DNA of 10,206 nt from Candidatus Fermentibacterales bacterium (lineage in GTDB: Bacteria; Fermentibacterota; Fermentibacteria; Fermentibacterales; JAFGKQ01), in assembly GCA_016928495.1 (NCBI GenBank), contig JAFGKQ010000222.1, positions 1 through 10,206 of the forward strand, written 5' to 3'. Positions 1 through 2,607 of this stretch are shown here, piece after piece (positions within the stretch are counted from its first letter, which is position 1; each line of letters opens with the position of its first letter). The notes beneath the pieces are model-generated. The model worked only from the letters and a program-made list of their open reading frames with translations. It was not told the DNA's origin and ran no database searches. Made by a program: the position numbers and the translations under genes.

Positions 1-2607
1 AATCCCATCTACATGATGTCGGCCTCCGGGGCCAGGGGAAGCAAGGACCAGGTCCAGCAGCTCGCGGGAATGCGAGGCCTCATGGCCAAGCCCAGGAAGA
101 GGCTCTCCGGCGAGGTTGGAGAGACGATAGAGACCCCCATCATCTCCTCCCTCAAGGAGGGGCTGTCCGTCATCGAGTACTCGATATCCACCCATGGCTC
201 GCGCAAGGGCCTGGCGGATACCGCTCTGAAGACTGCTGACGCCGGCTATCTGACCCGGCGTCTGGTGGACGTCGCGCAGGACGTGGTGATAACCACGACG
301 GACTGCGGCACGGTGCGGGGAAGGGTCATCAGTGCTCTCAAGGAGGGTGAGGAGATCATCGAGCCGCTCTCCGAGCGGATCCTGGGCAGAGTCACGGCCG
401 AGGACATCTTCGACCCGGCGACCGAGAAGATCATCTGCGAGGCCGGCATGGAGATATCGAGGGAGTTGGCTAGCAGGATCGAAGAGAGCGGAGTGGAGTC
501 GGTCCGCATACGCAGCGTGCTGACCTGCGAGGCCCCGCGGGGCCTCTGCGGCAAGTGCTACGGCTGGGACCTGTCCCGCAACAGGATGGTCACGGCCGGC
601 GAGGCTGTCGGTGTGACCGCGGCCCAGAGCATAGGAGAGCCTGGCACGCAGCTCACGCTCAGGACCTTCCACGTGGGTGGCGTGGCCGGGCATGCCGCCC
701 AGGAGAAGGAGATCCACGCCCGCCACTCCGGAACGGTCAGCTTCCGGAACATGCACATCATACACGGCAAGGAGGACGGAGGATCCAGGCAGATCGCGAG
801 CAGGACCGGCCAGTTCGACCTACTGGACGACAACGGAGACGTGCTCTCCTCCTATGACATCGTGGTCGGTTCGATCATGCGGGCGACTGACGGCCAGTTG
901 CTCACCAAGGGTGACGTCATCTGCGTCCAGGATCCCTTCACCATCCCCATTGTCGCCGAGGCGAGCGGATCGGTGCACTTCGTGGACATAGAGGAGGACA
1001 TAACTGTCCGGGAGGAGCTGGACAGCGAGAGAAGGAAGCAGATGATGATCGTGGAGGATCGCAGCAAGACCCTGCATCCCCACATCTTCATCCTCCCGGA
1101 GCACGAGGTGGTTCTGAGCGGAAGGCCGCGGCGAAGGGAAGAGGAGCTCCGGCTGGTCAGGGAGTACGCCTCCGCCGCCGCGTCCGGCGAAGGAAGGGTG
1201 CTGTTCACCTACAGGGAGGCCAGCCCAGCGAGACCCACCAGCCTCCTCGAGGACGTCGAGGAGATCATGCCGGAGCTCGAAGGGACCGCCTGCGTGAAGG
1301 TGGACTGCAGACGGGTCGCCACCGGGAGCTACGCGGCACTGGTGCAGGCCGCCGATCTGCTGCTGGACACCACTAGCGGCGCCAGATCGAGCAAGGCCGG
1401 CAAGCAGCTTGCCAGCGCTGTCGAGGGCCTCAAGAAGGCCGGCACTCGCCGGAACGAGGACGTGGAGGGGGCCTTCGTGGAGGCTATCCTCGAGTTCGCG
1501 AGGAAGAACGCGGTGCTGGTCTGCATGGCCAGCCTGGACAAGGCGCACGCCGGGACACGAAGGCTCGTCAGGCTGATCGGAGAGCAGATAGAGGGCTCCC
1601 GGCTGCTTCTCATGTCGAGCTTCTCCGTCCGGGGCCGCCGCAGCCACGTCGTCCACAGGGGAAAACAGAAGGAGAAGGAGAAGGACCAGGTCGAGGAGTT
1701 CATACATCCCAGGAAGTGGTATGCCATCCCGACCGGTGCCCACATCAGGGTCCATGACGCGACGATCGTCGCCGTGGGCACGCATCTCGCCCGGATCGAG
1801 AGGAAGCTGGGTCAGCAGAAGGACATCACCGGCGGCCTTCCGAGGGTAGACGAGCTGTTCGAGGCCAGGCGGCCCTCCGATGCCGCCTACATAGCCAGGA
1901 TCAGCGGGATCGCCACTCTCAGCCCGATACGTGCCGGCCTGAGGACCGTCACGATTCGGGGTGAACAGGGCCAGGAGGAGGACATCAAGATCCCCTCCAC
2001 CAGGCACATCAGGGTGCATGAAGGCGACAGGGTCGAGGCAGGGGATCGCCTGACGGAAGGACCGATCGACCCGCACGACATACTCGAGGTCAAGGGCACG
2101 GAGGCCGTGGAGGAGTACCTCCTCAACGAGATACAGGAGGTCTACAGGCTCCAGGGCGTGAAGATCAACGACAAGCATGTCGGCATCATCGTAAGGCAGA
2201 TGCTGGCCAAGGCGAAGATCGAGGACCCCGGGGACACCAGGTTCCTCGAGGGCGCTCAGGTCGACCGGCTGATCCTGAACGCAGAGAACATGGCCGTCCT
2301 CATGGAGGGCAAGAGGCCGGCAACCTCCAAGCCCCTTCTGCTCGGGATGACCAAGGCCTCGCTGGCGACGGACAGCTTCCTGTCCGCCGCTTCCTTCCAG
2401 GAGACGAACACCGTTCTGGCGGATGCCGCGGTGGAGGCGAGGGTGGACTATCTCAGAGGACTCAAGGAGAACGTCATAGTCGGGCATCTCATACCTGCGG
2501 GGACCGGGATGCGCTACTGCAGGAAGATAACGCTGAAGGAGGCGAAGGGAGGCGACCTGCCTCCCCCGCCGATGGGGGACATTGACGAAGACTCCGTCAA
2601 TGCCTAA
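1..2607 (+). CDS. rpoC: RNA polymerase beta' subunit, C-terminal part (5' end outside window)
   Basis: This is the beta' subunit of RNA polymerase, which holds part of the active site and the trigger loop. The frame is open from base 1, where the codons read [17 protein letters not shown], a conserved internal beta' segment, so the ATG at 13 is not the real start. Counting codons from base 1, the four zinc-site cysteines are C102, C176, C183 and C186. The trigger loop motif [19 protein letters not shown] follows, with the catalytic-type His at 224. After it come an SI3-like sandwich-barrel region, then [10 protein letters not shown] (codons near 609), [13 protein letters not shown] and the terminal [16 protein letters not shown]. 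Between about codons 373 and 566 there is an extra segment not found in ordinary beta' (described separately). The reading frame is intact and key catalytic residues are kept, so the protein should be functional. The stop TAA is at 2605. rpsL follows after 97 nt. Identification is certain. Confidence 0.98.
1117..1698 (+). other. About 194-residue insertion domain inside the SI3 region of RpoC, AAA_16/STAND-like
   Basis: Compared from memory with E. coli beta', the segment [15 protein letters not shown] before it and [15 protein letters not shown] after it would be nearly contiguous within the second SI3 barrel domain. The roughly 194 codons between them are extra. The pattern resembles the ATPase module of bacterial regulators. 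It has a GR..REEEL start (codons 374-383), a strand GRVLF, and then [14 protein letters not shown] (405-418), where a Walker A GEAGxGKTxLLEE would be expected. A VDCR (445-448) and SYAALVQ (453-459) segment follow, then helices, [13 protein letters not shown] (504-516), where Walker B hhhhDDhHWAD would be expected, and [10 protein letters not shown] (533-542), like the following strand. The Walker glycines, the P-loop lysine and the acidic pair are lost. A charged linker rich in K and E (about 555-565) leads back into beta'. The insertion is clear; the family assignment is an inference. Confidence 0.6.
2580..2602 (+). other. Hairpin over the last codons of rpoC
   Basis: CATTGACG pairs perfectly with CGTCAATG (8 bp) around a 7-nt loop, ending three bases before the rpoC stop codon. 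No T-tract follows, so it does not look like an intrinsic terminator. It is the first of three successive hairpins at the rpoC-rpsL junction. Confidence 0.5.

Follow-up and report, generated by a model that had tools for sequence, protein, structure and literature searches.

The Fermentibacterota sampled here share an ancestor in which an AAA+/STAND (AAA_16) core entered a hairpin loop of the second SBHM barrel of SI3, the trigger-loop insertion of the RNA polymerase subunit β′, and they have kept it there since. The inserted domain is, with high confidence, a pseudo-ATPase derived from AAA_16, a reading absent from the original prediction, which had recognised an extra domain and left its nature open. 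The window, by which we mean the whole stretch of DNA analysed (10,206 bases), is an entire contig of a draft genome of 337 contigs that is 81% complete, and its 5′ end falls within rpoC. Downstream of rpoC, the genes read by their products form the usual set, namely rpsL, rpsG, fusA, rpsJ, rplC, rplD, rplW, rplB, rpsS, rplV and rpsC. The parts of the polymerase subunit that concern us are as follows.

1 to 2607, forward strand: 3′ part of rpoC (RNA polymerase β′), a single open frame of 868 codons closed by the stop at 2607; RNA_pol_Rpb1_5 at 2.6e-69, rpoC_TIGR at 8e-195.
634 to 684, forward strand: N-terminal arm of the trigger loop, from the alignment to E. coli RpoC; invariant in all members of the insert family.
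685 to 1818, forward strand: SI3, the trigger-loop insertion, with two SBHM units of which the second hosts the nested domain; from the E. coli alignment and Foldseek.
1096 to 1716, forward strand: nested AAA+/STAND-like (AAA_16) core, very probably a pseudo-ATPase; from Pfam, hhalign, AlphaFold2, Foldseek, VIA and alignment.
1822 to 1875, forward strand: C-terminal arm of the trigger loop, a conserved segment after SI3; from the E. coli alignment and conservation among members.

The site of the insertion can be placed closely. RpoC sequences from the PDB match the window over codons 1-364/370 and again from 571/573, leaving a break of ~200 codons between, and an alignment that includes outgroups and the RpoC of E. 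coli K-12 pairs codon 364 with E. coli I1080 and codon 572 with A1097. The E. coli counterpart of the site is VDAQGNDVLIPGTDMP, which forms a loop (1081-1096) within the latter half of SI3 and so puts the insert in the second of the two tandem SBHM barrels. The original prediction, which had nested the extra domain in this barrel and proposed an RpoC alignment as a check, was right as to the site, the same alignment having only a short loop there in E. coli and in six unrelated outgroup RpoCs; its limits of 1117-1698 were slightly too narrow, as the matches at codons 364 and 572 and the short outgroup loop move them to ~1096-1716. The insert is thereby ~200 residues long (codons 366-572), and the span from GEPGTQ to DITGGLPRV comes to 408 residues, whereas E. 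coli has 221 and the six outgroups 201-213. In the full-length RpoC of a relative (G011), residues 16-1081 of E. coli β′ align with residues 32-1099 of the open frame and 1099-1368 with 1307-1575; there is no further large gap, so the nested insert is the sole large extra segment. Its surroundings are those of an ordinary trigger loop: the SBHM barrels of SI3 lie between both arms, and the model of the larger SI3, less confident (pLDDT 74) than that of the insert itself, matches 2auk and 4iqz, crystal structures of SI3 from E. coli, in Foldseek. By established numbering, we take residue 221 and H224 of the N-terminal arm to be R933 and H936 of E. coli.

The assignment to AAA_16 follows from the agreement of sequence profile, profile-profile comparison and fold. 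Of the 30 members of the insert family, 19 match the Pfam AAA_16 profile (best 3.8e-5), some of them over nearly its whole length; among the members scanned singly, scores stay below the gathering score (best 23.4 vs 32.6 bits). The window copy alone has no meaningful Pfam match, AAA_16 included, and a profile search against PDB sequences returned only chance coiled-coil matches. Compared by hhalign with eight AAA_16 domains from the window's own genome, the insert aligns at a probability of 92.9 and an E-value of 3.8e-7, colinear over 159 columns, against a probability of at most 0.5 for the controls (the reversed alignment and 20 column-shuffled ones). AlphaFold2, given the 30-member alignment, returned a model with pLDDT 87 and pTM 0.84, in which strands and helices follow the β-α-β-α-β-α-β order of a P-loop NTPase core. 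The best Foldseek matches of this model are Cdc6/Orc1, RdrA, MuB and NLR proteins, and TnsC is also among the structural matches (Foldseek/VIA-align); the VIA Z values, which like the E-values are moderate, reach 12.1 to Cdc6/Orc1 2qby_B (rmsd 3.4 over 153 residues), 10.6 to MalT 8bob and 9.8 to the archaeal ATPase 2qen.

The fold also bears on simpler explanations. HABAS (SBHM) domains are the usual type of SI3 insertion, and further SI3 insertions do occur, at another site, in other genomes of our census, both in favour of an ordinary extra barrel; the modelled domain, however, is α/β with P-loop NTPase topology, which rules out such a barrel and an intein alike. A frameshift or an assembly artefact is ruled out by the recurrence of the insert across the phylum with an open frame in all members, as the earlier claim of an intact frame had it. 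Taken together, the probability of this whole class of explanations is negligible. The motifs of the domain, in contrast, are partly those expected of AAA_16 and partly eroded, as the following features make clear.

1114 to 1149, forward strand: GRxxREEEL motif ahead of the first helix, corresponding to the GRexEL start of AAA_16 domains.
1198 to 1254, forward strand: strand 1 with the eroded P loop, where a nearly invariant arginine (codon 411) stands opposite the lysine of Walker A.
1288 to 1338, forward strand: strand 2 and GSYAA motif, corresponding to the ‘xPYxxL’ segment of AAA_16 domains.
1513 to 1539, forward strand: strand 3, the Walker B place; acids gone in this copy (CMASLDKAH).
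1603 to 1623, forward strand: strand 4, a sensor-1-like place.
1624 to 1671, forward strand: flexible basic loop of low model confidence, in which 90% or more of the members share G, R, S, H and G.
1684 to 1704, forward strand: conserved exit helix DQVEEFI, leading back into the barrel.

What the insert has retained, then, are the GRxxEL start, the GSYAA segment and the core strands. A Walker A motif (GxxxxGK[ST]) occurs in 0/30 members; in the hhalign comparison the P loop GEAGAGK-S of the AAA_16 domains aligns with a stretch of the insert in which the glycines are lost and the lysine has become arginine in nearly every copy. At the Walker B place the acidic pair is replaced by AS, SA, GG, AD or ES, Aegiribacteria-type members keeping a single Glu (IESLDRGH), and no C-terminal helical lid is seen in the models, where only the loop and one short helix come after strand 4 before the barrel resumes. 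Having lost most of Walker B as well as the P loop and lid, the domain, as judged from its sequence, probably does not hydrolyse ATP and is best called a pseudo-ATPase core. That the polymerase here contains a working NTPase, or a sensor of nucleotides, would be in keeping with the core fold and with the one acid kept at the Walker B place in some members; set against the absence of Walker A from all 30 members, the lost glycines, the arginine and the missing lid, we regard it as very improbable.

In the genomes sampled, the insert is confined to the phylum and seemingly universal in it. Across 42 genomes of the order, 37 carry it; of the remaining five, four lack any rpoC match and the fifth has an rpoC fragment of codons 1-89 only, which amounts to one copy per genome in 37/37 Fermentibacterota genomes whose rpoC covers the site, from three families. 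In GTDB genomes, a scan built on patterns of the insert family, which very remote relatives elsewhere could escape, gave 30 name-bearing loci, all of them in Candidatus Fermentibacteria / Fermentibacterota (Sabulitectum, Aegiribacteria, Hyd24-12), a phylum of the FCB group in the NCBI taxonomy; PMC11515920 also places Candidatus Fermentibacteria in the FCB group. The insert profile had no match at E <= 1e-4 in 343 sampled genomes outside the order. Of 18 genomes outside the order, 17 had an rpoC match, and none showed the insert where the matches reached both flanks. A PF04998 census over 290 genomes yielded a few other long SI3s among the best matches listed. In four of these (L099, L100, L101 and L103, in G137, G275, G227 and G098, respectively) other lineages have large insertions of their own, placed elsewhere, within the first half of SI3; in the long SI3s L099-L104 the insertions lie mostly in that first half or are short extensions, and no AAA-like segment appears in their alignment. 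Within the order, no second copy or free-standing relative of the insert was found at E <= 0.001 across the 42 genomes, and hence no donor. As a separate observation, large STAND/AAA_16 proteins whose Walker A is intact number at least eight in the genome of the window, on contigs C194, C200, C261, C119, C291 and C310, three of them on C194.

Considering its history, the insert is an old, vertically inherited and constrained domain. Its distances correlate with those of the RpoC core (r = 0.92; 0/2000 permutations as high), and its GC and GC3 match those of the flanks, in line with the claim that its codon use is like that of the rest of the gene. Among families it is 32-45% identical to the window copy, against ~80% for the core; in close pairs dN is 0.03-0.09, dS at least 0.28 and dN/dS ~0.03-0.13, in most of them ~1-2 times the value for the rest of SI3. 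Purifying selection is weaker on the insert than on the core, yet strong, with dN/dS far below 1, which together with the recurrence in every testable genome upholds the idea of a stable lineage-specific insertion. Could the domain nonetheless be a passive passenger, which long ago entered a surface loop of SI3 that permits insertions, is folded to avoid harm and lacks any partner or regulatory role? SI3 is indeed known to tolerate insertions of various kinds (PMC11515920, PMC10802570), the rate of evolution is higher in the insert than in the core, and purifying selection would also act on a domain that needs merely to stay folded. On the other hand, it has not been lost in any of the 37 genomes of the three families, the low dN/dS speaks of constraint, and residues of the flexible loop are conserved though the fold seems not to need them; we therefore consider a passenger unlikely, whilst taking it seriously.

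As the best explanation as a whole, we lean slightly towards one in which an AAA_16 core was inserted in the ancestor, lost its catalysis and is now a docking module that biases the trigger loop. Its catalytic motifs eroded and its lid gone, the pseudo-ATPase core would hang from SI3 as a rigid docking module, near the β′ jaw and the rim of the secondary channel. There it would bind a partner, perhaps a protein factor, another part of RNA polymerase or downstream DNA. In E. coli, the second barrel of SI3 (SBHMb) contacts the β′ jaw or swings over to TraR in the secondary channel (PMC6970531), which fits the earlier claim that the insert lies beside the secondary channel; SI3 also moves during trigger-loop folding and influences pausing and open complexes (PMC10802570). 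Since SI3 moves with the trigger loop, a partner bound to the insert would bias both the position of SI3 and trigger-loop folding, and this could in turn alter pausing, open-complex stability or the access of cleavage factors. Taken by itself, this docking and modulating role is plausible rather than probable. The RGxRSHxxxxG loop, conserved and of low model confidence, and the exit helix DxVEEFI are candidate contact sites.

If the partner were DNA, the insert might act as a nucleic-acid clamp whose basic loop touches duplex DNA close to the jaw, in front of the polymerase, much as the AAA+ cores of Orc/Cdc6 or MuB do. Downstream DNA runs close to the jaw side of SI3, AAA+ initiators bound to DNA and MuB give the top structural matches, and the flexible basic loop is conserved. 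Yet the net charge of the insert is near neutral, with an isoelectric point of 5.9 to 9.5 across members, which speaks against a general DNA-binding character; Orc/Cdc6 bind DNA with a winged-helix part that the insert does not have, and the RSH part of the loop is missing in one family (f3). A clamp seems distinctly improbable. Returning to the docking module, a bolder version would make the pseudo-AAA+ domain a dedicated receptor of RNA polymerase throughout the phylum, through which a lineage factor, e.g. a GreA of ~700 residues, controls trigger-loop movement. We hold this to be rather doubtful; if true, it would be a mode of regulating catalysis not known in other bacteria.

As for the Gre factors themselves, in three genomes read GreA has ~700 residues, with the Gre domains C-terminal and ~540 unannotated residues before them, and the lengths of open frames suggest a long GreA in nearly all 42 genomes; that of the window's genome lies at G000:C151:3314-3517 (locus L126, 459-2591). 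Long GreAs also occur in other lineages, for which NCBIfam has models 718 and 906 residues long, and this makes the connection between GreA and the insert only a lead. To our knowledge, cyanobacteria are without Gre factors, and the idea drawn from them, that the insert substitutes for a Gre factor, is unsupported, as GreA_GreB_N was found in 42/42 genomes of the order. The DksA/TraR zinc finger (PF01258) was found in only 2/42 Fermentibacterota genomes.

Surveys of β′ insertions (PMC11515920, PMC13114784) and work on cyanobacterial Si3 (PMC10802570) describe HABAS/SBHM, BEAN and sLC domains; ‘AAA’ is absent from the main text of the two surveys, which names no AAA+ domain of β′. A literature search on Fermentibacter rpoC, AAA+ in SI3 and pseudo-ATPases in β′, with subscription papers mostly outside its coverage, found no description. 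Lineage-specific SI3 insertions, then, are already known, and one derived from AAA+ appears to be new. β′ is among the most conserved and best studied of proteins, and its known lineage insertions have been described as barrel, BEAN or sLC domains; an inert domain derived from a P-loop NTPase, kept phylum-wide beside the lever of the active site, implies that the trigger-loop insertion can recruit unrelated folds. The insert is also a concrete part that can be deleted to probe the control of pausing and factor access by SI3, and it can serve as a marker of the phylum Candidatus Fermentibacterota.

How does it compare with known systems? HelD is reported to be an NTPase that recycles RNA polymerase and has a Gre-factor-like arm (PMC7749165, PMC7749167); likened by description, it is also NTPase-related and acts on RNA polymerase, but it is a separate, active enzyme, whereas the insert is part of β′ and predicted to be inactive. 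AAA_16 (PF13191), STAND/MalT and Orc/Cdc6 proteins share the core fold and colinear motifs with the insert, the GRxxEL start included; unlike them, it has neither Walker A nor lid, its Walker B is eroded, and the protein that hosts it is RpoC, not one of signalling or initiation. E. coli SI3 occupies the same place in the trigger loop, and the host part of the window's SI3 matches its structures; in E. coli, however, two SBHM barrels carry the short 1081-1096 loop, and in the window that loop holds an α/β domain. Cyanobacterial Si3 and other HABAS/SBHM insertions (PMC10802570, PMC11515920, PMC13114784) are likewise large, lineage-wide and nested in SI3; these, though, are additional barrels, whereas the insert of the Fermentibacterota has an AAA+-type fold.
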